Positions 2,163 to 63,840 of a DNA stretch of 64,000 nucleotides are shown here, piece after piece. The position numbers were made by a program, and so were the translations under genes. The notes under the pieces were generated by a model. It saw only the letters and a program-made list of their open reading frames with translations, made no database searches and had not been told where the DNA came from. This stretch comes from Fluviicola sp. (GTDB taxonomy: Bacteria; Bacteroidota; Bacteroidia; Flavobacteriales_D; Crocinitomicaceae), in assembly GCA_002734065.2 (NCBI GenBank), contig NVXU02000025.1, positions 1-64,000 of the forward strand. Direction: 5' to 3'. Position 1 is the first letter of the stretch. Every line of letters begins with the position of its first letter.

Positions 2163-2176
2163 CTTATTTGTTACTC
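2163..2176. repeat. Subterminal 14-bp direct repeat, left copy
   Basis: CTTATTTGTTACTC occurs here and again at 14139-14152, in the same orientation. Both copies are preceded by GTGTT, with one extra base on the left. They lie roughly 320 and 50 bp inside the two attachment sites. Integrase arm-binding sites often show such placement, but this is an inference from position only. Confidence 0.45.
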
Positions 2177-3196
2177 TTGCCTCATTTTATTTAAAGCATT
2201 TTCTAGCCAATCTGGATATTTACCCTCAAAATATTCGACAATTAATGGATTTCCAGTAAAAAAGTGTGCAGTTAGTTCAATCCAACTTTTCACTTCAACC
2301 TCACCATTTAGTTTGAATAGTTTTTTAGCTTTTGATTTAATTAGTTTTTTTCCTTTGTAATTGTAGTTAAAATCAGAATCCCGTCTAGCTAGGTAATCAT
2401 CTTGATTATAAAGATGAATGGCACCATCAAAATGACGAAAAGTATTTGTAGCCAAATCAAACTCTGCGTGAACATATTTTACAGGGAAGAGATTTTCCCC
2501 ATCAACATCTATTGAAATAGTTTCATCACTAAAAGCAGCAATTTGAACCGTTTTTATTTTATCTTTTGTATACCAATAAACATCTAAAGAATAGGCGTTT
2601 TTAAACATGAATGAAAGTGTTGAAGAATCTATATCCATTGGTGGTCTTATCTTTACCAATCCATCTTTTACATCTTTTATTTCACTAGTGAAATTAGCTC
2701 CATACCAAGTATCAAACTCCATATATTCACTTTTGCTCATATCAATACGAACTCTATCCATATCAACAGCAACATAACTATCAATTTTATTGTGATCATA
2801 ACCCCAAAACATTGCGATAAAATGAGGAGCCCAATTTGCTTCTTCATACAAACCTCTTCTAAAATAAGGGTGAGCCATTATAAAATAATTCTCGCAAAGT
2901 GAATGTGCTGTTTTTGTAGTTTTATTAGGGTATAATTCATTAATAACCTTAGTAGGGATCAACCCCTCCTTATCAACTTCAATTCTTTCATCAATAAGAT
3001 TAAGTAAATTAGGGTAACAAGCTACCAAGCCAATTCTTCTAATGTAATTAAAATTAGAATCATCCAATTCAACTCCTTTCGATTTACAAAAGTGAATAAA
3101 GTTAGTTATCACAACTTGGTATTTTTCCAATTTTTCCAAACGTTCTTGATTCACATCTTTAATGTACCTTTTGTATATTTCTTCCGCTTCGCTCAT
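2171..3196 (-). CDS. Unrecognised 341-aa element protein
   Basis: I do not recognise this family. The N-terminal 40 residues are charged and probably helical. The middle and C-terminal parts are rich in aromatic and acidic residues and look like an alternating-strand globular domain (DVYWYTKDKIKTVQIAAF, EFDLATNTFRHFDGA). There is no signal peptide, membrane segment or clear catalytic motif. It is the first gene inside attL, reads toward lysS, and shares the terminator at 2094-2126. Its upstream neighbour is a small recombinase with a gap of about 55 bp, so the two may be co-transcribed. A cargo role, including defence, is possible but unsupported. Confidence 0.75.
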   Translation of the reverse strand: MSEAEEIYKRYIKDVNQERLEKLEKYQVVITNFIHFCKSKGVELDDSNFNYIRRIGLVACYPNLLNLIDERIEVDKEGLIPTKVINELYPNKTTKTAHSLCENYFIMAHPYFRRGLYEEANWAPHFIAMFWGYDHNKIDSYVAVDMDRVRIDMSKSEYMEFDTWYGANFTSEIKDVKDGLVKIRPPMDIDSSTLSFMFKNAYSLDVYWYTKDKIKTVQIAAFSDETISIDVDGENLFPVKYVHAEFDLATNTFRHFDGAIHLYNQDDYLARRDSDFNYNYKGKKLIKSKAKKLFKLNGEVEVKSWIELTAHFFTGNPLIVEYFEGKYPDWLENALNKMRQE

Positions 3197-3251
3197 TTCT
3201 CATCATTCTGTTCGAGTAAAAGACGTAGCACAATATTAAATGTTGCGTAAT

Positions 3252-3839
3252 TTATAAATTCAAATAAACATTCATTATTTCTTGTTGGGAAATTCCAAGA
3301 TATCTTCTTGTAATTGCAACATTTGAATGGGAGAATACCATTGATAATAAAATTAGACTATTCTCACTTTTATTATTCAATTCGTAGACACGCTTTCCAA
3401 ATGTTTTTCTTAATGTATGAGTACTCGCATTATCAGTAGAAATTTGATATCGATTAAAAACTTCTTTTAATTTCCTATTGATAAATTGAAGTGATATTCG
3501 TTCACCTTTACGATTTTTAAAAATGAATTGATTTACATTTTTATTCCGACTTAAGTATTGGTTTTCCCATGCACAAATTATATTTGCTTTGCACCTAGGA
3601 TGAATTGAGATTTCTCTTTCTTTACCTGTTTTCATTTCATTAAGTTTAAGTGATTCTTTATCTAGTATATCACACCACTTTAAATTTAATAAATCCGAAG
3701 CCCTTAAGCCCAAATGACAACCAATTGAAACAAGAAGGTATTCACGCCATTGGTTTTCTTGTTTTAATTGAGAAATGAGACCTAGCATAACATTCCAATC
3801 AAGGCCACTACAAGTAGTTTTCGTTCCTTTTAATCCCAT
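3252..3839 (-). CDS. Minimal tyrosine recombinase (catalytic domain only)
   Basis: The 195-aa protein shows the tyrosine recombinase catalytic signature. An arginine lies in GLRASDLLNLKW (near residue 50), a lysine-bearing turn in LNEMKTGKERE, the HxxR box in THTLRKTFGKRVY (near 142-152), and the final His/Trp-like position plus tyrosine in FSHSNVAITRRYLGI (near 170-182). The usual N-terminal SAM-like core-binding domain of about 100 residues is missing. Such short forms can act with accessory factors or at simple inverted sites. It is distinct from the full-length integrase at 12826-14007. Possible roles are plasmid dimer resolution, inversion of a DNA segment, or a decaying second integrase. 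Confidence 0.85.
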   Translation of the reverse strand: MGLKGTKTTCSGLDWNVMLGLISQLKQENQWREYLLVSIGCHLGLRASDLLNLKWCDILDKESLKLNEMKTGKEREISIHPRCKANIICAWENQYLSRNKNVNQFIFKNRKGERISLQFINRKLKEVFNRYQISTDNASTHTLRKTFGKRVYELNNKSENSLILLSMVFSHSNVAITRRYLGISQQEIMNVYLNL

Positions 3840-3966
3840 ATGTGTTTATGCCAAAGTAATCAAAAACCGTATTTCGGAGTTTCATTTTTATCATTAAAAA
3901 AACAAAAGAAAAACTAATGCATTATTAGTAAAGACTTGAATGATAATAGGCGATGATGATTGAAGG

Positions 3967-4003
3967 TGTTTAGTTTCATAATTGTTATTAATGAAACTAA
4001 ACA
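3967..4003. promoter_or_regulatory. Inverted-repeat operator upstream of the C-type regulator
   Basis: TGTTTAGTTTCAT (3967-3979) is perfectly repeated in inverse at 3991-4003, with 11 bases between. It lies immediately upstream of a candidate promoter for the XRE gene at 4059. C-proteins of restriction-modification loci bind such dyads to activate and then limit their own operon, so this is a likely C-box. Assignment is by position and symmetry. Confidence 0.65.
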
Positions 4004-4011
4004 TCGTTGAC

Positions 4012-4042
4012 TTGTTTTTATGATGATTTAACTCTACTTTTG
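4012..4042 (+). promoter_or_regulatory. Candidate Bacteroidota-type promoter for the C/R operon
   Basis: TACTTTTG at 4035-4042 fits the TAnnTTTG -7 box, and a TTG at 4012-4014 lies about 20 bp upstream as a -33 element. Initiation would fall about 10 bases before the ATG at 4059, giving a very short leader, as is common for C-protein genes. Confidence 0.55.
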
Positions 4043-4058
4043 CATACTAAGAGTAGCA

Positions 4059-4286
4059 ATGAAAGAGAAAAATAATATTCTACTTGAGTTTGGCAATGTT
4101 ATTAAATCACATCGTAAGAAATGTGGTATTTCTCAAGAAGAACTAGCGTTAAAAGCAGGGTTACATAGAACATACATTGGTATGATCGAGCGAGGAGAAA
4201 AAAACCTAACATTAATAAATATTATGAAAATTTCATCTGCTCTTGAAATAAAAATTAGCAACCTATTTTATGAATGTAATCTATAA
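4059..4286 (+). CDS. XRE-family controller (C) protein of the R-M locus
   Basis: This 75-aa protein is a single Cro/CI-type helix-turn-helix: SHRKKCGISQEELALKAGLH, then RTYIGMIERGEKNLT, then a short helical end. Size, fold and position match C proteins, which delay expression of the endonuclease until the host DNA is methylated. Its last codons overlap the start of the endonuclease gene by 17 bases in another frame, which implies translational coupling. A 13-bp inverted repeat lies directly upstream of its promoter. Confidence 0.85.
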   Translation: MKEKNNILLEFGNVIKSHRKKCGISQEELALKAGLHRTYIGMIERGEKNLTLINIMKISSALEIKISNLFYECNL

Positions 4287-5520
4287 ATTTGGCACAGGAC
4301 GAATTGGCGAAATAGTAAAATGGCTTCGAGACACATATAGTGCAGATGATATAGCTGATATTGATGAAGAAATAAAGCTCAATACTATTCTTACAGCCTT
4401 ACAATTAACTAGTGGTGAGTTTGATTCTGTAATTGCTAACAATTCCCCCGTTTTTAGAACCGTCAAAGGGCATGTTTTTGAATCTGTCTTTAAATATATT
4501 TTGGAGGAAAATTCGATTGATGTTGATCATATTGGAGGAGACAATGTAGTTGACCTACGTGTTAATAAGTTTGATTTACAGCTTAAAACACCTAATATGG
4601 CTGGCACAAAAGGAGATGTGGCACAATACAAAACGCATAAAACACATGGTGCAAAATCCGAGCAAGAATCAATGGATTATTACTATAAAATTGATGAATT
4701 TGCAACTTTTCTTGTTGGACTAATTTCGTATGAACCATTTCAAGTAATATTTTTAAATCATAGCGAAATACCACGACACCCTAAGGATGTTAATAGAATC
4801 CAAAGCCCTTTTAAAGTTACTTGGAGAGGACATCATGGGCTTAATGCTTTTGAAAGAATAGGAGTGAAAGATTTAGATTTAGATAAGAATACTCATGTAC
4901 CTGAAGATTTTAGCAAAGAATTACTACCATTAACTAGCGCCAAACTAAATTTGAAATCTGAAATTATTCTCGATACAATTTTAAACGAAGGTAATTTTAG
5001 AATATGGGACATGTCAATTAGAGGCTTTGCTAGGGAAGTTGCAATCGATAATTTACTCAGTGAATTTGGAATCTCATCATTAAACCCAGTACCTCTTAAG
5101 ACTGAACGAGGGGATAAAGCTGACTTTGCAGTTAACATTAATGGTAGTCATAAGTTTTTTCAAGTTAAAGGTGTTTCAACTAATAATTGTAAATTCAACG
5201 GAGGAAATTCAATCGTTGCAACAGAAACACAATTGACTAGAGGAAGAGTTAATGACCACCCTACTCAAAGTAGACTTTATTTAAAAAGTGATTTTGAATA
5301 TCTTATTTTAGCACTTGATCCTCCACAAGTTGCTTTATTTGAAAATGAAATTGGTAACGATGCTAATTTAGAATGGAAGTTATTTTGCATTCCAACCGAT
5401 GAACTTACTGCTCATTCTGTAATAAAGCATAGGCTAAATTCTTTACAAAAGTTTAGTTATCAAGATTTAAAAAAATATGAATTGAAGGAAGCAAAAATTA
5501 AAGAAATCTTTGATCTTTAA
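4270..5520 (+). CDS. Putative type II restriction endonuclease with two QxK nuclease-like modules
   Basis: The 416-aa protein follows the C gene with an overlap and faces two DNA methyltransferases, which strongly suggests the endonuclease of the system. Two regions look alike. Around 66-106, GHVFE (E71) is followed by VVDLRV (D95) and LQLKT (Q104, K106). Around 251-300, GFAREV (E256) is followed by KADFAVN (D285) and FQVKG (Q298, K300). Each fits a PD-(D/E)xK fold with Q in place of the second acid, as in Mrr-type nucleases. This hints at an internal duplication or a two-domain arrangement. Similarity to a named enzyme is not recognised and the recognition site is unknown. Its 3' end overlaps the convergent methyltransferase by 23 bases. 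The second methionine-like start choices are not better supported. Confidence 0.75.
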   Translation: MNVIYKFGTGRIGEIVKWLRDTYSADDIADIDEEIKLNTILTALQLTSGEFDSVIANNSPVFRTVKGHVFESVFKYILEENSIDVDHIGGDNVVDLRVNKFDLQLKTPNMAGTKGDVAQYKTHKTHGAKSEQESMDYYYKIDEFATFLVGLISYEPFQVIFLNHSEIPRHPKDVNRIQSPFKVTWRGHHGLNAFERIGVKDLDLDKNTHVPEDFSKELLPLTSAKLNLKSEIILDTILNEGNFRIWDMSIRGFAREVAIDNLLSEFGISSLNPVPLKTERGDKADFAVNINGSHKFFQVKGVSTNNCKFNGGNSIVATETQLTRGRVNDHPTQSRLYLKSDFEYLILALDPPQVALFENEIGNDANLEWKLFCIPTDELTAHSVIKHRLNSLQKFSYQDLKKYELKEAKIKEIFDL

Positions 5521-6343
5521 CTTTAAAATTTGTGATTATCAACTCGTTACCTGTGTTTCTTGATTTTCCACTAATATTTGCAGTATTATATAACCAATTT
5601 CGTTCATAAATATTTGCCCAAGAATATAGTTTTCTAACTTCTTCACAATCATCATATGAAAGGCAAAAATAATGTTCTGTGCTTTTTAAAACTTTTGCTA
5701 ATCGAAGATGATCATCGGTTTCAAAAGACTTAGTATAAGCTCGTTTTTGATCAGCCTTAAAGTAAGGTGGATCTAAATATATTAATACCTTTTTACCTTT
5801 TTTCTTTGCCCGAATTACTTTTTCAAAATCAACACTTGTAATTTTTATATTATCAAGTTTTTTTGAAGAGCCAACTAAGAAATTTTTCCAGTTTTTAGGA
5901 GGAGAACTTTTGCCTTCTTTATAACCCCATGCGGGCTTATGTATTATTCCAGAGTATGATGTTCTATTTAAATAGTATGTTCTAAATGCCCTATCTATAG
6001 CTGTATTTGGTTTTGAATTAATAACCTCCTTATGCCTAATTTTTGATGCAATTTCATTATCATACATCTCGGCAAATTCATTAATAATCTCAGAATTGGC
6101 AATATGTTGATAAACATTAATTATTTCTTCTTCCAAATCATTAATCCAATTGTATTTAGTTTTAGCTTTTGCTAGATAAACACTTCCTCCACCTAGAAAA
6201 GGTTCTCTATATTCATCATGTTCTACACTATCTAAAAATGGAATTATATGTTTCAAGGCATAGAATTTTCCTCCCGGATATCGAAATGGAGATTTTGCAT
6301 AATCTTTTGATTTCTCGTATTTATTTAATTCAAACTCTTCCAT
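5498..6343 (-). CDS. D12-class DNA adenine N6-methyltransferase 1
   Basis: The 281-aa protein transfers a methyl group from S-adenosylmethionine to adenine in its target DNA and would protect the element and host from the neighbouring nuclease. Visible motifs are FRYPGGK (20-26), the AdoMet loop EPFLGGGSV (47-55), NDLEEEII (68-75) and the catalytic DPPY (191-194), all typical of Dam/DpnM-like enzymes. Length is normal for the family. Its start codon overlaps the stop of methyltransferase 2 as TAATG, so the two genes form a coupled pair. Its 3' end overlaps the endonuclease 3' end by 23 bases. Specificity cannot be read from sequence. Confidence 0.93.
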   Translation of the reverse strand: MEEFELNKYEKSKDYAKSPFRYPGGKFYALKHIIPFLDSVEHDEYREPFLGGGSVYLAKAKTKYNWINDLEEEIINVYQHIANSEIINEFAEMYDNEIASKIRHKEVINSKPNTAIDRAFRTYYLNRTSYSGIIHKPAWGYKEGKSSPPKNWKNFLVGSSKKLDNIKITSVDFEKVIRAKKKGKKVLIYLDPPYFKADQKRAYTKSFETDDHLRLAKVLKSTEHYFCLSYDDCEEVRKLYSWANIYERNWLYNTANISGKSRNTGNELIITNFKVKDQRFL

Positions 6344-7155
6344 TAAAATAATGTGGTTTTTGGGATTTCATAATTTGTAATAATGAGCTCAAACCCCATT
6401 TTTCTAGAACCATTTTCAATATTTGAATTATCTACACGATAAAAAAACTTCACTTCATGAATATTTGCCCATTTATACAGCTCCCTCACTTCTTCACAAT
6501 CTTCATAAGTAAGAAAGAACTTATGCTTCGTTAACTTTAGAGTTGAAGCAAGCCTAATATGATCCTCAGATGTAAATCCATGACGGTAATGTTTCTTCTT
6601 CTTTGGTTTAAAGTATGGTGGATCTACAAATAATAAAACTTCCTTGTCACTTTTGGCCTTGATTACCTTTTCAAAATCCAACGAAGTTAGTTTTACATCT
6701 TTTAATTTTTCCCCGCATGGACCTAATCTTTCATGCCACCTCTCAGGTGGTAAACTTCTTTTTTCCCTATATCCCCATGCTGGAGAAACTAGTTTGCCAC
6801 TAAATGAAGTTCTATTTAAATAATAGTACTTTTTAGCAACTTCATAATCATCTTTTGTTTCACTCTCAAAAACCTCTCTCCATCTTTCTTTGTTAGCAAC
6901 TTCATTTTTAAAAGAAGCTATTAGTTTTTTACGACTTCGAGGTGACTTGACATTTTTATAAGTTGTAATTAACTCTTCATCAAGATCATTTAACCAATTA
7001 GTTTCAACTTTTTGTTTCGCGAAGAATACGCTTCCACCGCCCACAAAAGGTTCTCGATACTCACCATGAGGCACGGCATTCCAAAACTCACTTAAAAGTT
7101 TTAATGCATAAAATTTACCGCCTGGGTATCTAAATAATATTGGAACTTTCCCCAT
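6343..7155 (-). CDS. D12-class DNA adenine N6-methyltransferase 2
   Basis: The 270-aa protein is a paralogue of its downstream neighbour, with FRYPGGK (8-14), EPFVGGGSV (35-43), LNDLDEELI (55-63) and DPPY (178-181). The order FRYPGGK, GGGSV, DPPY is the D12 family order. It is first in the methyltransferase pair. A few other type II loci, such as DpnII, carry two adenine methylases, sometimes one for single-stranded DNA or one for each strand of an asymmetric site. Which applies here is open. The 670-bp repeat region lies upstream, so its promoter shares space with the likely replication origin. Confidence 0.92.
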   Translation of the reverse strand: MGKVPILFRYPGGKFYALKLLSEFWNAVPHGEYREPFVGGGSVFFAKQKVETNWLNDLDEELITTYKNVKSPRSRKKLIASFKNEVANKERWREVFESETKDDYEVAKKYYYLNRTSFSGKLVSPAWGYREKRSLPPERWHERLGPCGEKLKDVKLTSLDFEKVIKAKSDKEVLLFVDPPYFKPKKKKHYRHGFTSEDHIRLASTLKLTKHKFFLTYEDCEEVRELYKWANIHEVKFFYRVDNSNIENGSRKMGFELIITNYEIPKTTLF

Positions 7156-7330
7156 TTTTAATTGCTAATTATAGTGTGCAAAATTAGTCATTTTTTTTCT
7201 TTGATTGATAAATGAATTAAGCAATTTTAAACAATTAGTACGTAATCTATTTACGATGATCTTAAGTTAAGATTCTAATTCACTAAAAAAAACAGTGCTT
7301 TATACTAAAATAATTGCTTCTTAAAAAAGT
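7156..7330. other. AT-rich spacer between methyltransferase promoter and tandem repeats
   Basis: No open frame of note is present. The segment is rich in A and T and should contain the promoter for the two methyltransferases reading left. I could not pick out a clear -7/-33 pair. Confidence 0.4.
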
Positions 7331-7697
7331 GTTACCCCTTAAGATATACTTAATTGATTTATATGTTACTCCTATGTTTTACACTTGACTTTTGTAAAAA
7401 AAACGTTGGTGTAAAAAATGTTACCTCTTAAGATATACTTAATTGATTTATATGTTACTTCTTTGTTTTACACTTGACTTTTGTAAAAAAAAACGTTGGT
7501 GTAAAAAATGTTACCCCTTAAGATATACTTAATTGATTTATATGTTACTTCTTTGTTTTACACTTGACTTTTGTAAAAAAACGTTGGTGTAAAAACATGT
7601 TACCCCTTAAGATATACTTAATTGATTTATATGTTACTACTTTGTTTTACACTTGATTTTTCACAAAAAAGAGTTAGTGTAAAAAATGTTACCCCTT
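7331..7697. repeat. Four tandem ~89-bp iteron-like repeats (probable replication origin)
   Basis: Copies begin at 7331, 7420, 7510 and 7599 with GTTACC(C/T)CTTAAGATATAC, and a partial fifth begins at 7688. Spacing is 89-90 bp. Each unit also contains TTTTACAC and its inverse GTGTAAAA, so every unit can form a hairpin. Copies are nearly identical except in runs of A and a few bases; the fourth differs most near its end. The repeats sit just upstream of a replication-type protein and are followed by an AT-rich stretch (7700-7825), as in iteron-regulated plasmid origins. There is no unique spacer between units, so this is not a CRISPR array. Confidence 0.85.
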
Positions 7698-7825
7698 CGC
7701 GTAATCTTTTCTACATATATAAGATTAGAAATTGTTAAACTTAGCGCATAAAAAGAACCAAAATTAACCGAAAACAACTTCAATAATTTAGTTTGAAATT
7801 GTGTATAAAAACAAACTAATTATGA

Positions 7826-9037
7826 ATGATTCACCGATTATATATTCCCGAAAACTTAAACTTAATAACTCAACTATCCTCAATCCGTGACGAAAAATGG
7901 ATTAAGAAAAATAAATACCGCTATTTTTTCATCTTATCTTCAATACACTATAGAAGAGTAACGAATAAAAGCTATGGTAAAAATTCTTACATCCCTTTAC
8001 ACTACAAACAATTAAGAACAATTGTTAGCCAAAGGCTTGCTAAAACATTCATTGATGACTTAATAAAGGTTGGGGTAATTGAATGTGACAATCACCACAT
8101 TCAAGGTGTTAAATCCCGCGGATATAGGTTTACTGCGGCTTATCGTGATGTTAAAACTAGGGCGTTTGAAAACATTGATGATCATCTTATTTCCCGAATG
8201 AAAAAGCATATTGAAGATGTTGACACTTACGCACTTTCATTAGAACCACATATTAAGCGAATCTATCAATGCATGAAAAGTATTCATCTTGACACAAATG
8301 AAGCTAATAAAGTGTTAAGAAATAAATATGAAAATCAAACAGAAGCACTCGCTCATTCAAAAATTGCTTTAGATTTGATTGAAGATAAATTTTGGTTTTT
8401 TACGCGTGATAATTTTGGAGGTAGAATTCATAGTAATTTAACTACACTACCAAAAGTTGTACGACCATATATCATAGCAAGACATACGTTTACTAATCAA
8501 AAAATTGACCTTACAGAATTGGACATTAAAAATTCTCAACCCATGTTCTTTTTAGCTTATATGAAAACACAAAATGAATGGGATATACCACAATTTGAAA
8601 TACATCAATATGCCAAATTATTAAAAAAAGGCTTTTATGAATTTTTTATGAACGAATTAGGTAACTTTAATCGTGAAGCAGTTAAAACTAATGTGTTTAA
8701 AAAGCTATTCTACAACAAAAGTTACCCTCTCAAACTTACTAAATATGAGAAGGTATTTAAAACTCATTTTCCGATAATGTTTAAAGTTATTACCAAAATC
8801 AAACAAGAAAAACATAATCAATTGGCTCTTAAATTGCAAAAACTTGAAGCAGATTTGATCATTAACATTATTGCAAAGGAATATGTAAAAAAACATCCAC
8901 TTGATTTTATTACGACCATCCACGATTCAATTTTAATCAACAAATTTCACGCAACCAATTTTCAATCAATTATCAAAAGTAAAATTTTAAAAATGTATGG
9001 TGTTGATGCCGAAATTCATCTAAGAAATCTTCATTAG
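7826..9037 (+). CDS. Family-A polymerase-like replication protein (TV-Pol-like)
   Basis: The 403-aa protein has an N-terminal part (about 25-110) that looks like a winged helix. A later part carries the motifs of the palm of superfamily A polymerases: motif A ELDIKNSQP with D233, motif B REAVKTNVFKKLFY with R283, K287 and Y296, and motif C TTIHDSIL with H366 and D367. The stretch GGRIHSNLTTLPK near 198-210 precedes motif A, as in related mobile-element proteins. It lacks the 3'-5' exonuclease domain and the bulk of DNA polymerase I. This arrangement fits the TV-Pol group described from transposons, viruses and bacterial mobile elements. With iteron-like repeats upstream, a role in initiating or performing replication of the element is likely. 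The assignment rests on motifs only. Its end overlaps the convergent XRE gene by 4 bases. Confidence 0.7.
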   Translation: MIHRLYIPENLNLITQLSSIRDEKWIKKNKYRYFFILSSIHYRRVTNKSYGKNSYIPLHYKQLRTIVSQRLAKTFIDDLIKVGVIECDNHHIQGVKSRGYRFTAAYRDVKTRAFENIDDHLISRMKKHIEDVDTYALSLEPHIKRIYQCMKSIHLDTNEANKVLRNKYENQTEALAHSKIALDLIEDKFWFFTRDNFGGRIHSNLTTLPKVVRPYIIARHTFTNQKIDLTELDIKNSQPMFFLAYMKTQNEWDIPQFEIHQYAKLLKKGFYEFFMNELGNFNREAVKTNVFKKLFYNKSYPLKLTKYEKVFKTHFPIMFKVITKIKQEKHNQLALKLQKLEADLIINIIAKEYVKKHPLDFITTIHDSILINKFHATNFQSIIKSKILKMYGVDAEIHLRNLH

Positions 9038-9267
9038 TCGATTTGAAAATCAAACAACTCGCTTGGAGTTATTTCAAGTGCGATGGCTAGTTTAACAACC
9101 ATTTTAATTGAAGTGTTTACTTTTCCTTTTTCAATTCTTCTCAATGATGTGGTTTCAATTGGAATTCTTGATGATAAATCCAACATAGTAAGCCCTTTAT
9201 TCTCTCGCAAACTTCTCAGGTGCTTACCAAAAGCAACTTCTATACGTTTATCATCTTGTTTATCCAT
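9034..9267 (-). CDS. XRE-family regulator
   Basis: This 77-aa Cro/CI-type protein has the HTH in LRSLRENKGLTMLDLSSRIP and TTSLRRIEKGK, with a short C-terminal helix. It lies convergent to the replication gene and divergent from the gene at 9384. A palindromic site at 9352-9370 in the divergent gap is a natural operator candidate. It could control copy number, or the small genes to the right. Confidence 0.85.
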   Translation of the reverse strand: MDKQDDKRIEVAFGKHLRSLRENKGLTMLDLSSRIPIETTSLRRIEKGKVNTSIKMVVKLAIALEITPSELFDFQID

Positions 9268-9351
9268 CTGGAAACAAAGTTACTTGTGTACGCTCACTTA
9301 GTAGCAATCACATTTGTAGTACATATATGACTCTTTTTAGTTTTTATTGAT

Positions 9352-9370
9352 TATATTCGTAACGAATATA
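9352..9370. promoter_or_regulatory. Palindromic operator candidate
   Basis: TATATTCG (9352-9359) is perfectly inverted at 9363-9370 with a TAA centre. It lies 14 bp upstream of the gene at 9384 and about 85 bp upstream of the divergent XRE gene, where a repressor would cover the promoter. Confidence 0.5.
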
Positions 9371-9383
9371 AAAGCCAATAAGC

Positions 9384-9674
9384 ATGAGATTTAGCAAGGA
9401 AAATGAAAAAGGAAAGCTACTTTTTTGGATAGACATAACTATGGAGAAAATAGACCTATCCAAGTATAGTGGTGTAGAAGGAGATTATGGAAATCAATGG
9501 ACTTATACAATTGCCGAGGTACCTAAAGAACTTTGCGAAGACATTACCAAATTAGGTTCAAAACTAAATGTAGATGGTGAACCAATAACACAAGAAGATT
9601 TAGAAAAAGTGATAAATGAGGCGATGAATCAAATTGTTTCATCACAAAGGGCTAATTCTTATTTCCTAAACTAA
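9384..9674 (+). CDS. Small unrecognised element protein (96 aa)
   Basis: The protein is soluble and acidic with a helical C-terminus (EDLEKVINEAMNQIVSSQ). An internal start at residue 20 (9441) is possible and would give a 77-aa protein. It begins a run of four same-strand genes (9384-11205) spaced tightly at first. No family is recognised. Confidence 0.6.
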   Translation: MRFSKENEKGKLLFWIDITMEKIDLSKYSGVEGDYGNQWTYTIAEVPKELCEDITKLGSKLNVDGEPITQEDLEKVINEAMNQIVSSQRANSYFLN

Positions 9675-9704
9675 GTGAAAGGTTTTATTGAGTGTGCTCT
9701 TTTA

Positions 9705-9848
9705 ATGGAAAAGTTAATTTCCATTGTTACTAAAGAAATAAACGATGCGGTAGCAATCAAGGACTATGAAAAATCCGCATACTTACGCTATTTAAAAAAA
9801 GATATCGAATCAAATCTAGACAACCTTAAAAAACGAGAAAGCATATGA
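9705..9848 (+). CDS. Small helical protein (47 aa)
   Basis: The frame MEKLISIVTKEINDAVAIKD continues to a TGA at 9846. It reads as a coiled, charged helix, like UvrB/UvrC-motif-type peptides (KEINDAVAIKDYEKSAYLR), which may be a small protein-protein interaction helix. A GTG at 9675 directly after the previous stop would add 10 residues. The stop overlaps the next start (ATATGA), suggesting translational coupling. Confidence 0.5.
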   Translation: MEKLISIVTKEINDAVAIKDYEKSAYLRYLKKDIESNLDNLKKRESI

Positions 9849-10006
9849 AAAATTATAAGATCACATTCCAATCCGCAAAAGTGACAGCATCATCAAGCCC
9901 TTCAAAAGGTTCTAAAGTTGTTAGTGCAAAAAGTAGTGATGAAGCAATTAACAAAATCATTTCAATGTATTCAAGTATTGAAATTCTTAATGTTGAAAAA
10001 CTTTAA
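9845..10006 (+). CDS. Small basic protein (53 aa)
   Basis: The frame MKNYKITFQSAKVTASSSPS runs to TAA at 10004-10006. It overlaps the end of the preceding small gene by 4 bases, which supports it as a coupled member of the same operon. The predicted fold has a short strand, a Ser/Lys-rich linker and a helix. The function is unknown. The inverted repeat starting at 10007 directly abuts its stop codon. Confidence 0.5.
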   Translation: MKNYKITFQSAKVTASSSPSKGSKVVSAKSSDEAINKIISMYSSIEILNVEKL

Positions 10007-10125
10007 ACTACTTCTAAAGAAGTTGTTTAACGCACGTAAGAAAGTTAAAAAAACAATTCAAAACACCCAAGAAAGTGTTTTGTGAAAACCATTATTCAAT
10101 TCAATACAACTTCTTTAGAAGTAGT
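10007..10125. repeat. 20-bp inverted repeat enclosing a second nested hairpin
   Basis: ACTACTTCTAAAGAAGTTGT at 10007-10026 is perfectly inverted at 10106-10125. Inside it, CAAAACAC (10059-10066) pairs with GTGTTTTG (10075-10082) around eight bases. The structure lies between the small genes and the start at 10141. It may be an mRNA structure, an attenuator, or recombination sites flanking a 79-bp invertible segment; see findings. Confidence 0.8.
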
Positions 10126-10140
10126 ATTGAAATTACTACT

Positions 10141-11205
10141 ATGCACGATTTTGAACAACTCCTTCAAGGAAAGTTGCTAAAGGCAACAATAAACGAAAAT
10201 AGTACAGTTTTCTCCTTAAATGTATTAGTGCCGAAAAACACTAATACATACCCTGTTGAAGATGTTCCTTTGTTTGAGCCTATAATAGTTGAAATAAGAA
10301 TTCATAAGTTGTTTATTGGGACATTGGAAAACTCAACAATGAAAACAAAATTAGAAGAAGATAATATTATTCTTTCAACTTTTGAAGGAAAGGTATTTCA
10401 AGGTGATTTTGGTAGCCCAGAACAACATAACGTTGACGACATAGATTTTCCATCATTTATAAATGTTCAATTCACTCCATCACACTTAAACACTCCTTTC
10501 TACGAATTAGAATTAGTATTACCAATAGGAGAAAATATGCCATTCATTAAAATCGTGTTTAACCATTTTGAAGTTAAAAACAATAATGGTAAAAAATTAA
10601 ACTATCATAATCTAACAAGTGCTTTAAAAATATATTACGCTGATGGTTTTGTATCAACGAAAGATCGGATGAAATGGGATTGGGAAATACTACATGGGAT
10701 TAAGAATAGCCCAGAGTTTTATTCAAATAAACTTAGTAATAACTATTGGTTTAAACATCAATTTAACACCATTCTTGGCGAACCCAAAATTGACAAATCT
10801 TTTGGTGAGTTAACTCTCCCATGTTGGATAGAAATTGAAGAAAACTCCATCCAATATGATGATTATGGAAGTTTGATTGATATTAAATTTATCAATGCTA
10901 CAAAGTGCAAACATGAATTATTAGAGAATAAGATTTATGTGTGGTTGCCTTCCGAAGACACTTTCGCGATGCTTACGTTGATTACAAATGAATTGATTAA
11001 TTGTGAAGTTAGTGACCCGTTTAAACATATAATTAATTTGTATTTCTCGAAGTGGATACCGTGTGACATAATAAATACAACACTTGTATATGACTTAAAA
11101 CGTGTAGTGAAAAGTGATGATAAATTATCCGAACACTCAGGAAGGGAACTTTTTTTTAAGAATATTGAAACTATTATCGAAGACAGAAATTTAACCTTAG
11201 TGTAA
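10141..11205 (+). CDS. Unrecognised element protein (354 aa)
   Basis: The start at 10141 (MHDFEQLLQGKLLKAT) is chosen because the longer frame begins with a GTG inside a hairpin arm and its first 22 residues look non-coding. The protein is soluble, acidic and strand-rich, with no signal peptide, transmembrane segment or catalytic motif that I can name. Residues such as FEGKVFQGDFGSPEQ and KWDWEILHGIKNSPEF may mark conserved turns. The upstream nested inverted repeats may control its expression. It could be cargo of the element. Confidence 0.7.
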   Translation: MHDFEQLLQGKLLKATINENSTVFSLNVLVPKNTNTYPVEDVPLFEPIIVEIRIHKLFIGTLENSTMKTKLEEDNIILSTFEGKVFQGDFGSPEQHNVDDIDFPSFINVQFTPSHLNTPFYELELVLPIGENMPFIKIVFNHFEVKNNNGKKLNYHNLTSALKIYYADGFVSTKDRMKWDWEILHGIKNSPEFYSNKLSNNYWFKHQFNTILGEPKIDKSFGELTLPCWIEIEENSIQYDDYGSLIDIKFINATKCKHELLENKIYVWLPSEDTFAMLTLITNELINCEVSDPFKHIINLYFSKWIPCDIINTTLVYDLKRVVKSDDKLSEHSGRELFFKNIETIIEDRNLTLV

Positions 11206-11309: not shown

Positions 11310-12191
11310 TTAGGTTATTGAGCCTAAGGGATGATTAATAATGTATTGATATTCATATTTAATGATTTTATTCAACATAAGAGTAGTGTTCTCAAGTGCA
11401 TTAAAAACATTACCCTCAAGACAATATCTATCATAGATTTGAAATAAATCAACTAAATGTTCTTCACCAATCTTTCGAGAAACGTTAACCTTCATATAGT
11501 TGGCATAACCATTTAAATCATCATGATTAATGTAGCTTGAATTTATTTCAAGGTGATAATTTTTTACTATATGATCTATGGATAGAAAAAAGAAATAACT
11601 AGAAAAATTTTGCTTTGACGATAACCGTTCTTTTTTTTGTATTAGGTTAAATCTTTCCACAGTTTTTTCAGAATCAATAGCCTTAATGATTTGTTGCAAA
11701 TTATAAAGACCTAGATTCTCAAAAAATGAAATTGCCTTTTGTTTTATGATTTCATATTTCCCATTTTTATAGCTATCAGCCCATTCTAATTCAGTATTGA
11801 TTTCAATATCGAGTTCCAATATTTCAACCCCAACCTCTCTCAACCAAAGTGAGAAGTTGTAGCCATTTTTTTCACTCAGATACATGGTACTTTGAAAAAG
11901 CCCAAGTTTTGTATTTTCAAGGTGTGCAACAAAATCATCGTTAAAATGAAATAATATGTGTTCTTTTTTTAGTTGGATTTCTTTAACTATAAATTTCAAA
12001 ATCATCGAAAAGTTTTCTGTTAATCCGTGAATATCTACACACATTTCATAATCTCCACGCTCAAAGGCAATTGATTCAATTTCTTGTTGATATTGATATT
12101 CTTCATCCATTAGTTCACAAATCTTAATTAGCTTTTTCTCAGTTGAAAAAGTAGGGTTATCTAGTATTTTATTGTAATTTAATTGTATCAT
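11310..12191 (-). CDS. Unrecognised helical element protein (293 aa)
   Basis: The protein is mostly helical and charged, with many Glu, Lys and Ile residues and no membrane segment. It starts directly after the stop of the excisionase-like gene (zero spacing), so the two form an operon, and it reads toward the convergent gene ending at 11205. The place next to an excisionase-like HTH and the integrase suggests a part in maintenance or mobility. I recognise no domain. Confidence 0.7.
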   Translation of the reverse strand: MIQLNYNKILDNPTFSTEKKLIKICELMDEEYQYQQEIESIAFERGDYEMCVDIHGLTENFSMILKFIVKEIQLKKEHILFHFNDDFVAHLENTKLGLFQSTMYLSEKNGYNFSLWLREVGVEILELDIEINTELEWADSYKNGKYEIIKQKAISFFENLGLYNLQQIIKAIDSEKTVERFNLIQKKERLSSKQNFSSYFFFLSIDHIVKNYHLEINSSYINHDDLNGYANYMKVNVSRKIGEEHLVDLFQIYDRYCLEGNVFNALENTTLMLNKIIKYEYQYIINHPLGSIT

Positions 12192-12437
12192 TTAAAATTT
12201 ATTTTGCCATTCTTTACGAATGGAATTGTTAGTAAAATTTGTAGGTTCTACCCTACATTCATTTATGTAAGTTCTTAGCCTGCTTTCTTCAAAACAAAGC
12301 CTACCACCAATTTTAATATGTGGTAATTTCCCAGCTCTAGTCATCTTGTAAACATGATCTACCGATAATCCGAGCCAACTTGACGCTTGTTTGATATTCC
12401 AGAATTCACATTTTGGAATAATATTGTTGTTTTGCAT
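12192..12437 (-). CDS. Excisionase-like HTH protein
   Basis: This 81-aa protein matches the MerR-like HTH_17/excisionase pattern: FWNIKQASSWLGLSVDHVYK, then AGKLPHIKIGGRLCF and a helix RLRTYINEC. Such proteins bend DNA at attachment sites and steer an integrase toward excision. It is located between the integrase and an unknown gene. It may also act as a simple transcription regulator. Confidence 0.8.
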   Translation of the reverse strand: MQNNNIIPKCEFWNIKQASSWLGLSVDHVYKMTRAGKLPHIKIGGRLCFEESRLRTYINECRVEPTNFTNNSIRKEWQNKF

Positions 12438-12825: not shown

Positions 12826-14007
12826 TTAAAGACTTGGTCGAGAGTATAGTGAACGTATTAATGAACTAGTTTCAAGACGGGAATAGTGAAGTGTACTTTT
12901 AATATCGCGGTGACCTAAAAGCGATTTAATTGTATGTAATTCTACTCCATTATTCCTTGACATAACACCAAAGGTATGGCGACCTTTGTGCATTGTAATG
13001 TTCCTCTCGTTTAATGATGGCATATTTGCCTCTTTGAATACTTTCTTCAGAGTTCTATTGCAACTACCATTATGGGATGAAATATTAAACACCTTTTGTT
13101 TTTCGTTCCTTCGTTCCCCTAAAATTTTCAGTGTGGAATCTAGAATAGGTATATTTAGAACAACACCAGTTTTGCGTTGCTTAATTTTAATCAAGTAAAC
13201 ATCCTCTTTTCCATGAGGGTTATCAACTTTGTAGATATCTCCCCACTTTAGATTATAACAATCCGAATACCTCAACCCAACTAAACAAGTAAAGACGAAT
13301 GCTTTTTTAGTTTCATTGAAATCTTTGATTTGACTTGTGTGATTGTTAAGTTTTCTAATCTCATCAATTGTGAGTGTATGCATTATTTTACTTTCTCTAT
13401 CATCTTTAGGAATCCCTTTGACGAAAAGTGTAAAATCCTCTGTTATTAACCCTTGTTTGTGAGCTTCTTTAATTGCACTTTGAAACTTTAAATAGTATAG
13501 CCTTATCGTCGAAAATTGTAATGTTTTGACCCTTTTTAATCGTTCATGTTCTATACCTTGTAGCAAATTCAATCGTTCATCAATTGTGTTAGGATGAAGT
13601 GATTTTAAATAATCTAAAAAATGTTGACACAACTCAGAACCTATGCGTTTAAACATAACTTTTGAACCAAAGCATTTTTCAAAATGCTTAATGCAATTAA
13701 TCCATATACTCTTAGTGCTTGGGTTTAATTTTGTATTACTAAAATCACAAAAGAACTCATTAAAAAGTGCATTCCGCTTAAGTTCCAAGCTGTTTAATTC
13801 AGTAACACCATGCTTTAAATAATGTGATTCTTTTAGGTAGCCTTCACGAGTAGCACTTGCTATTTTTTCTTTCCTTAACGATTTAGGTTCGTTTTGATAC
13901 AATCTATAATCCGAAGTTTTCGTGAATCTTTTACCGTTTATGTAGAAATCGAAATACAATGAAACATCACCATTTTTCAATTTTCGTTCTCTTAATTTTA
14001 CCGCCAT
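12826..14007 (-). CDS. Tyrosine site-specific integrase
   Basis: The 393-aa protein has the Bacteroidota arm-binding N-terminus (KLRERKLKNGDVSLYFDFYING), a SAM-like core-binding domain (about 100-210) and a catalytic domain. The catalytic domain has R in VGLRYSDCYNLKWGD (near 255), K in KIKQRKTGVVLNIP, HKGRHTFG (near 340-347), GHRDIKSTLHY with final tyrosine, and the SR after it. It cuts and rejoins DNA at att sites. Its 5' end lies about 190 bp from attR, the usual place for an integrase of an inserted element. The target here is the lysS 3' coding region rather than a tRNA gene. Confidence 0.95.
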   Translation of the reverse strand: MAVKLRERKLKNGDVSLYFDFYINGKRFTKTSDYRLYQNEPKSLRKEKIASATREGYLKESHYLKHGVTELNSLELKRNALFNEFFCDFSNTKLNPSTKSIWINCIKHFEKCFGSKVMFKRIGSELCQHFLDYLKSLHPNTIDERLNLLQGIEHERLKRVKTLQFSTIRLYYLKFQSAIKEAHKQGLITEDFTLFVKGIPKDDRESKIMHTLTIDEIRKLNNHTSQIKDFNETKKAFVFTCLVGLRYSDCYNLKWGDIYKVDNPHGKEDVYLIKIKQRKTGVVLNIPILDSTLKILGERRNEKQKVFNISSHNGSCNRTLKKVFKEANMPSLNERNITMHKGRHTFGVMSRNNGVELHTIKSLLGHRDIKSTLHYSRLETSSLIRSLYSRPSL

Positions 14008-14138: not shown

Positions 14139-14152
14139 CTTATTTGTTACTC
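14139..14152. repeat. Subterminal 14-bp direct repeat, right copy
   Basis: CTTATTTGTTACTC matches 2163-2176. It lies between the integrase start and attR, 50 bp from the att segment, where integrase arm sites usually lie. Confidence 0.45.
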
Positions 14153-14199: not shown

Positions 14200-14442
14200 G
14201 TGGTTTTGTTTTTCCCTCAAATGAAACCAGAAGTGTTTGGAAAACAAGGTCCAACCTTGACGGAGAATGAGAAAATCATCTTTGACATTCTTGCAAAAGA
14301 AGAATCAATGGGCTTGTCGGAGCTCAAGTCACAAGCGGGATTGAGCGGCAAGCAATGGGATAAAGGCATCAAAGGGTTGACCAAAAATGGCGTTGCGAAA
14401 GTGACGAAGAATGAGGAAGGGCTGTTTGTGGAAGTGGTTTAA
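14200..14442 (+). pseudogene. lysS: Displaced native 3' end of lysS
   Basis: Reading in frame, VLFFPQMKPEVFG, then LTENEKIIFDIL, LSGKQWDKGIKGL and VTKNEEGLFVEVV align with the last 80 codons of the intact lysS at 1811-2053. No start region, catalytic domain or promoter is present, although a GTG happens to precede it. This is the stub left when the element entered lysS and supplied its own tail. It ends in a 4-base overlap with the convergent DUF1501 gene, which was the original downstream neighbour. If the element were excised, this tail would rejoin lysS. Confidence 0.92.
14202..14241. repeat. attR (right attachment site)
   Basis: This is the right copy of the 40-bp near-identical direct repeat. 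The 23-bp perfect core occupies 14212-14234. Sequence to the right continues as the native lysS tail, while sequence to the left belongs to the element. Confidence 0.88.
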
Positions 14443-63709: not shown

Positions 63710-63730
63710 AAAATCTCGCTACGCTCGTTT

Positions 63731-63840
63731 TTAGACACGTCCGCTTTGCGAACTTTTAGACTTATTCGCTTTGCGAATTGTTAGATACGCGCTTTGCCCT
63801 TTAGACACGGTCGTAACCTCCCTATTAGACAGGTCTCGCT
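63731..63840. repeat. Degenerate TTAGACA-headed tandem repeats
   Basis: Five units of about 17-26 bases start with TTAGAC or TTAGAT, several with CGCTTTGCGAA inside (for example CGCTTTGCGAACTTTTAGAC). The array lies between fhs and the partial glycosyltransferase gene. Confidence 0.6.

Follow-up and report, generated by a model that had tools for sequence, protein, structure and literature searches.

The DNA analyzed here, referred to as the window, is a stretch of 64,000 nucleotides of Fluviicola sp. contig NVXU02000025.1. It contains an element of about 12.4 kb integrated in lysS. The features of the element and its boundaries are as follows.

323 to 2056, + strand: lysS, a hybrid of a host 5′ part and a 3′ end that appears to be supplied by the element from the att core onward
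1823 to 1845, + strand: left att core, 23 bp, identical to 14212 to 14234
2158 to 2175, + strand: two TGTTAC boxes 11 bp apart, left subterminal, candidate integrase arm-type sites
2171 to 3196, − strand: ORF of 341 aa, no significant family match
3252 to 3839, − strand: tyrosine recombinase of 195 aa, catalytic domain (PF00589)
4059 to 4286, + strand: HTH_3 regulator
4270 to 5520, + strand: ORF of 416 aa, weakly matched by a type II restriction enzyme model (E = 0.0011)
5498 to 6343, − strand: D12-class adenine DNA methyltransferase
6343 to 7155, − strand: second methyltransferase (type II MTase model)
7322 to 7697, + strand: tandem array of four 89- to 90-bp units and a partial fifth, 75% A+T, with nine TGTTAC boxes
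7826 to 9037, + strand: 403-aa protein, predicted winged helix plus family-A polymerase
7826 to 8179, + strand: winged-helix domain of that protein, residues 1 to 118, from the predicted structure
8225 to 9034, + strand: polymerase domain of that protein, residues 134 to 403 (D233, motif A; K287, fingers; D367, motif C)
9034 to 9267, − strand: HTH_3 regulator, convergent with the polymerase gene
9384 to 9674, + strand: ORF of 96 aa
10075 to 11205, + strand: ORF of 376 aa, no significant family match
11310 to 12191, − strand: ORF of 293 aa, no significant family match
12192 to 12437, − strand: excisionase-like HTH_17 protein
12826 to 14007, − strand: integrase, a tyrosine recombinase with Arm-DNA-bind_5 and SAM-like domains
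14141 to 14151, + strand: TATTTGTTACT box, right subterminal, candidate integrase arm-type site
14200 to 14442, + strand: displaced original 3′ end of the host lysS, from the lysS comparison
14212 to 14234, + strand: right att core, 23 bp identical to the left core

The identical att cores, the integrase, and the altered lysS end agree with the preliminary description of this DNA, which had proposed an integrated element. The GC content per kb was 27 to 32% across the 12-kb stretch and 31 to 43%, mostly 34 to 40%, outside it. The two versions of the lysS end, the one now attached to the gene and the remnant at 14200, were compared with same-genus lysS loci, 19 of which were examined and 15 of which had a readable end. 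The C terminus of LysRS scored nearer to the remnant in 12 of the 15 loci and nearer to the attached end in 3 (L243, L245, and L249). In the nearest relative, L231, whose LysRS is 88% identical, the match to the remnant was 57 of 66 residues and that to the attached end was 30. Because most of the 15 loci and L231 resemble the remnant, the most likely history is that the element inserted in lysS and exchanged the 3′ end of the gene for a new one. Judged from these sequences, the lysS end that precedes the element is a replacement, and the presence of the integrase gene points to a tyrosine recombinase as the agent. In none of the 15 same-genus loci was the gene that follows the displaced lysS end in the window found within 1.5 kb after lysS. 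In another genus, locus L226 (G039:C9:96000-115900) has, at 2613 to 8692, MazG_C, TIR, and SLOG (LD_cluster2/STALD) genes after lysS and a related integrase; these genes are likely defense cargo, and lysS may serve repeatedly as an island site in the family Crocinitomicaceae.

Within the element, the genes from 4059 to 7155 beside the array (the HTH_3 regulator, the weakly restriction-enzyme-like ORF, and the two methyltransferases) are likely restriction-modification cargo, and our guess is that this regulator controls the restriction-modification genes. The 195-aa tyrosine recombinase matches the catalytic domain only; a similar ORF lies near the polymerase gene in L139/L153, which are two copies of one locus. 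Family searches recognized no helicase, primase, or relaxase among the tested ORFs of the element; the four ORFs of 293 to 416 aa that lack a convincing family could conceal one. A short tandem repeat with a period of about 25 bp and 2.8 copies lies at 63729 to 63797 of the window.

The ORF at 7826 to 9037 is open over 403 codons. Pfam, NCBIfam, and PADLOC gave no match for the polymerase, and Pfam and NCBIfam returned 0 families for the whole protein at E values up to 1. There were thus 0 Rep family matches in these two collections, which accords with the earlier statement that the protein is not a classic Rep. PHROGs gave a single family of unknown function (E = 0.056). As a single sequence, the protein found two unrelated chains in the PDB (E = 1.7 and 1.9), and a single-protein search for related loci found none. 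When a sequence profile was compared to the PDB at E values up to 10, only two distinct sequences appeared, Pol theta (E = 0.52) and RNAP2 (E = 1.1); both fall short of significance, and their alignments cover motif B, and motif C weakly.

Conservation was assessed in an alignment of 68 rows, which consisted of the window protein and 67 ORFs chosen from 122 distinct matches. Invariant were R200, D233, N236, S237, Q238, Y271, K287, P316, Q338, E341, and D367; H366 was present in 67 of the 68 sequences. The hairpin and motif A stretches were themselves search patterns, so some of their invariance in the 68 rows follows from the selection. The patterns did not include K287, Q338, E341, or D367, and R200, D233, K287, E341, and D367 were invariant also in a 21-row alignment gathered without patterns. 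R200 (68/68 and 21/21) is the Arg of a beta-hairpin before the palm, with model strands at 192 to 194 and 201 to 203. The motif residues named in the preliminary description therefore fared differently: D233, K287, and D367 are strict, but R283 and Y296, although present in the window protein, are not. Position 283 is R in 41 rows, K in 26, and E in 1, so that the Arg of the fingers RxxxK motif varies while its Lys, K287, is found in 68/68; position 296 is F in 59 rows and Y in 9.

The AlphaFold2 model, made from the window protein and 67 homologues, had a pLDDT of 94.3 and a pTM of 0.90. The best Foldseek match in the PDB had an E value of 1.2e-6, and the best 50 of 58 rows (E up to 0.001) were all family-A DNA polymerases. 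With VIA, the highest Z score was 15.0, to Pol theta (rmsd, 2.9 over 243 residues; aligned model residues, about 134 to 403), followed by T7 DNA polymerase (14.5), Bst (14.0), and Klenow (13.5). Global TM-scores were low, 0.30 to 0.45 by query length, as expected when one domain is compared to a larger protein. Among viral models, two full-length ones matched with TM-scores of 0.78 to 0.79, and the DNA replication protein of Zamilon virus, which we take to be a virophage of the Sputnik kind, matched with an E value of 8.9e-5. The predicted fold of residues ∼134 to 403 is clearly that of a family-A polymerase. The structure-prediction check that had been suggested for 7826 to 9037 thus returned a palm and fingers, and the assignment to family A, made from the palm signature alone, was upheld by the model and by the three strict catalytic positions. 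The description of the protein as small and free of an exonuclease also stands, since family and structure searches matched no exonuclease or other nuclease domain in its 403 aa.

The N-terminal domain, residues 1 to 118, was modeled alone with a pLDDT of 90.9; its best Foldseek E value was 0.041. The VIA rows included the initiator 4pt7 (row 1), the DNA-binding N-terminal domain 4pql (row 2), and the Rep-DNA complex 5kbj (row 5), with Z scores of 6.8 to 7.1. We take 4pt7 and 5kbj to be RepA-type plasmid initiators. Unrelated winged helices (an ORC chain, Fur, and LexA) scored equally with these three rows, and a Z score below 8 may reflect merely a common arrangement. As far as the model goes, VIA and Foldseek support a winged helix and not a Rep family. 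A candidate winged helix had been described earlier as preceding the protein; it is present, but as the protein's own residues 1 to 118. Searched by sequence, this domain found four unrelated PDB chains with E values of 1.5 or more.

We compared the family with known small polymerases by profile-profile alignment, in which the E values refer to single comparisons. The match to divPolA2 had a Prob of 98 and an E value of 2.2e-13 and was collinear from the hairpin to motif C, including motifs A and B. The divPolA2 profile was made from AUR84708, given as a divPolA2 example in PMC11348598, and seven relatives drawn from 266 matching records; one divPolA2 sequence alone gave a Prob of 11 (E = 0.0027). 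Four probable TV-Pols gave a Prob of 81 (E = 1.2e-5). This set comprised proteins of the Polaromonas plasmids pH8NP1 and pW9NP1, the protein of the Microcystis phage gene MAP_030, and a Calothrix plasmid ORF cut at the end of its record; we deduced that these are TV-Pols, without drawing on the list of Iyer (2008). The position of MAP_030 next to transposase genes suggests that its product is the TV-Pol that Iyer mentioned in that phage. On the likeness to TV-Pol claimed at the outset, the profile match stands beside far lower values for single members, with Probs of 0.5 (MAP_030) and 0.8 (Polaromonas, over a collinear stretch). The probable TV-Pols matched divPolA2 with a Prob of 12. One locus (L171) was lost from one alignment set. 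The N-terminal alignment comprised 46 of the 61 pieces of suitable length; it gave no profile match to the N termini of the probable TV-Pols or to those of divPolA2 (Prob, 0.4; E = 0.15). A close kinship with the host Pol I was also considered and rejected. The profile match extended over motif C only, with a Prob of 3.8 from a shallow control (nine host-clade domains, rows 61 to 86% identical to the first), a result that speaks only against a near relationship to the resident PolA.

According to PMC11348598, the divPolA2 proteins of Caudoviricetes are about 430 aa long and have a catalytic palm and their own N-terminal domain but no 3′ exonuclease domain. The present protein resembles them in the small size, the exonuclease-free palm, and the collinear profile match, and it has an N-terminal domain of its own, with no profile match to theirs. 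It differs in motif A, for which the consensus is D-Y-K-x-x-H-P in divPolA2 and D-I-K-N-S-Q-P here; also, divPolA2 was described from phages, whereas the present family occurs in integrated elements and plasmids as well. The likeness to TV-Pol (PMC2579912) consists of a minimal family-A domain with the hairpin Arg, two Asp residues, and the fingers Lys, no nuclease domain, and a location in mobile elements with an integrase or resolvase. However, the D5 helicase was not found in the element's tested ORFs or among the 25 listed of 123 neighbor families, and the N-terminal part here is a predicted winged helix with strands whereas TV-PolN is predicted to be all-helical (PMC2579912). The Bacteroidetes species in Iyer's figure legend (PMC2579912) may have proteins that belong to the present family. 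A further parallel is CcPol, which, according to PMC10061031, starts DNA strands de novo together with MP and retains part of a 3′-5′ exonuclease domain. Like CcPol-MP and the PolA-SSB primases of the same source, the present protein is a mobile-element family-A polymerase without a full Pol I. It differs from PolA-SSB in having a winged helix and no matched helicase; an SSB partner was sought by family searches only. Iteron plasmid initiators of the RepA type also have an upstream direct-repeat array, and the winged-helix N terminus here weakly resembles 4pt7, 4pql, and 5kbj; in contrast to those initiators, a catalytic polymerase domain is attached here and a Pfam or NCBIfam Rep match is absent. 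A further family search also gave no Rep family among the 25 listed of 27 families. In the open-license literature we found no paper on the present polymerase family. Our best reading of the sequence comparisons is that the protein is a variant of the TV-Pol/divPolA2 type, related to divPolA2 and probably to TV-Pol.

The family is distributed sporadically. Single-sequence searches at the level of the host family found a polymerase match in 12 of 240 genomes (own included); the order-level search found 16 of 399, many of them the same genomes. A profile search of the phylum Bacteroidota found 20 of 392, own included. Two Hymenobacter plasmids carry homologues and also encode a separate annotated replication initiation protein. 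Pattern searches gave 11 genome contigs (ten bearing the names of Bacteroidota lineages and one called simply a bacterium) and, in viral data, 67 and 43 loci, partly on the same contigs. Homologues were present in six uncultured phage records of 595 to 735 kb, two with identical figures. Some relatives (G274 and G323) are fragmented or have stops; in G274:C4 (L164 and L165), a complete polymerase-like ORF is accompanied by several fragments over about 20 kb, which suggests stacked or decaying islands. In a tree of 88 rows (65 viral and 23 bacterial) made by a quick method only, the sources were clustered, with 9 label changes versus 20.5 in shuffles, and viral and bacterial rows interleave, at least 4 changes being forced by starred branches. 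The window protein had a long branch and no settled neighbor. Exchange between phages and bacterial elements, in either direction, is plausible.

Of 150 ORFs beside the bacterial members, at 22 loci, there were 12 matches to Phage_integrase and 5 to Resolvase, a count made with no background control. This tally took in 150 of 169 ORFs of at least 100 aa and 22 of 25 loci, L151, L152, and L166 being left out; L139 and L141 (copies of L153 and L152), L150, and L156 (a 4.4-kb contig) had been skipped beforehand, so that G151 and G165 are absent from it. Among phages, 10 of 165 neighboring ORFs, from five loci, were scanned. Five had no family, two matched glycosyltransferase or methyltransferase families, and the others were a carbamoyltransferase, an AAA_3 ATPase that also matched MCM weakly, and a DNA_pol_A protein; no replication cluster was formed. 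In the L100 viral contig, the family member (7875 to 8987) is adjoined by a second small DNA_pol_A protein (9258 to 10562; 434 aa; E = 2.7e-21). A same-strand ORF of 400 to 450 aa precedes the polymerase gene in phage loci L027, L032, L037, L039, L043, L051, L054, L057, L062, L075, L106, and L112; that of L032 had no Pfam match.

Upstream of the polymerase gene, TRF delimited the array at 7322 to 7697, with a period of 89, 4.2 copies, and 93% matches. The units start at 7331, 7420, 7510, and 7599 and the partial fifth at 7688, much as the preliminary description had reported. The 700 bp upstream of the ORF contained 195 repeated 10-mers versus at most 9 in 100 dinucleotide shuffles, and the array occurs once in the genome. 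From 7150 to 7830 there was only one DnaA box site, with one mismatch. The array is not a conserved companion of the gene. We compared 40 loci, of which L158 (no polymerase call) and L159 (upstream region too short) were dropped; among the remaining 38 upstream regions, 5 (window included) beat all 100 shuffles, and the other 4 had just 7 (L155), 5 (L163, in which the repeats fall inside the upstream ORF), 10 (L198), and 19 (L200) repeated 10-mers. Similarly, no repeat within 1.5 kb of the gene in relatives came near the window's score of 641 to 648, the next being 191 in L129. Given these scans, conserved iterons upstream of relatives were rejected as a general trait. L198 has four CCCCTT repeats 353 to 439 bp upstream of its polymerase gene, before a small ORF that resembles an HTH excisionase by eye.

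The reading that we prefer, with a probability of about 0.5, is that the 403-aa protein is the replication or priming protein of the excised element. Excision by Int and the Xis-like protein would yield a circle, which the 403-aa protein would copy or prime, and the winged helix would place the polymerase on the element's DNA, possibly at the adjacent array. In favor of this reading, in which DNA binding, polymerase activity, priming, and replication are all inferred, are the conserved active site, the confident model, the winged helix, the recombinase neighbors, the sporadic spread, the homologues on plasmids and viral contigs, the relation to divPolA2 and the probable TV-Pols, and the precedent of CcPol. 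Counted against a replication role are the lack of recognized helper replication genes, the lack of conservation of the array, the recurrence of its box at the element ends, the lack of a replication cluster among the scanned phage neighbors, and the other replication protein of the Hymenobacter plasmids. Of its steps, the one that treats the array as the origin of the polymerase itself, and not as a cluster of integrase-type boxes, is the weakest, and the label "iteron" is unproven.

It is close to an even chance, if somewhat short of it, that the polymerase is real but that the array is a cluster of integrase (arm-type) or regulatory boxes and not its origin. TGTTAC occurs twice in every full unit, at a spacing of 34 bp. 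The longer pattern TATWTGTTACT occurs six times in the 64 kb, always on the + strand (0.17 expected; six was not attained in any of 100 shuffles): every one of the four units has a single copy, and the other two are at 2165 and 14141, near the element ends. The integrases nearest in sequence, those of L225 and L226 (38 and 37%), each lie directly after a lysS-type gene, and the gap between lysS and int in both contains TGTTA[CT]-5-TGTTA[CT] pairs with the same 11-bp step as the pair at the left end of the window. Elsewhere there were only 3 such pairs in the other fetched loci (2.8 Mb, or 5.6 million strand-bases when both strands are counted), a count that left out seven further loci repeating the window, L225, or L226. 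The genomes carrying these integrases (G065 for L225 and G039 for L226) are outside the 12, of 240, in which the single-sequence search found a polymerase match. The recurrence of the box near both ends, and of related paired boxes beside two related integrases in genomes without a polymerase match, speaks for the integrase no less than for a Rep; the boxes are probably arm-type sites of this integrase group, which the array resembles, and the integrase may bind them. Against this, both patterns were chosen post hoc, from sequences already inspected; the looser WTGTTACY was only mildly enriched in the window (17 versus 9.5; 1 of 100 shuffles equally high); and the longest exact strings common to the array and the ends are not the boxes but an 11-mer (left end) and a 10-mer (right end). 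In addition, the boxes in the array are 34 and 55 bp apart, with no 11-bp pair among them, those in the L225 gap are all TGTTAT (L226 has one TGTTAT and two TGTTAC), and the examined parts of L225 and L226 yielded no second att core.

We think it unlikely, although worth weighing, that the protein is an accessory polymerase for repair, gap filling, or RNA synthesis and that copying of the element is passive or left to host enzymes. Such a role would fit the lack of a replication cluster among the 10 scanned phage neighbors, the adjoining DNA_pol_A gene in L100, and the view of the divPolA2 authors (PMC11348598) that repair or RNA polymerase activity is possible; however, the integrase and resolvase neighbors in bacteria and the N-terminal winged helix suggest service to the element. 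That the ORF is a decaying remnant, as the broken relatives G274 and G323 might suggest, is highly improbable, as it is open throughout and keeps every position that is invariant in the 68 rows. A long shot, although better than decay, is a one-protein initiator-polymerase whose winged helix would read the box both in the array and near the two ends, coupling excision and integration with DNA synthesis.

Descriptions of the small family-A polymerases of mobile elements (TV-Pol, CcPol, and divPolA2) are sparse. The present family joins Bacteroidota genomes, plasmids, and large phages, and it combines a polymerase and a winged helix, both predicted, in just 403 aa. The TGTTAC boxes common to the array and the element ends pose a concrete question, that of array versus arm sites. 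If active, the protein would be a compact test case of a Pol I-type enzyme turned into a replication or priming protein.
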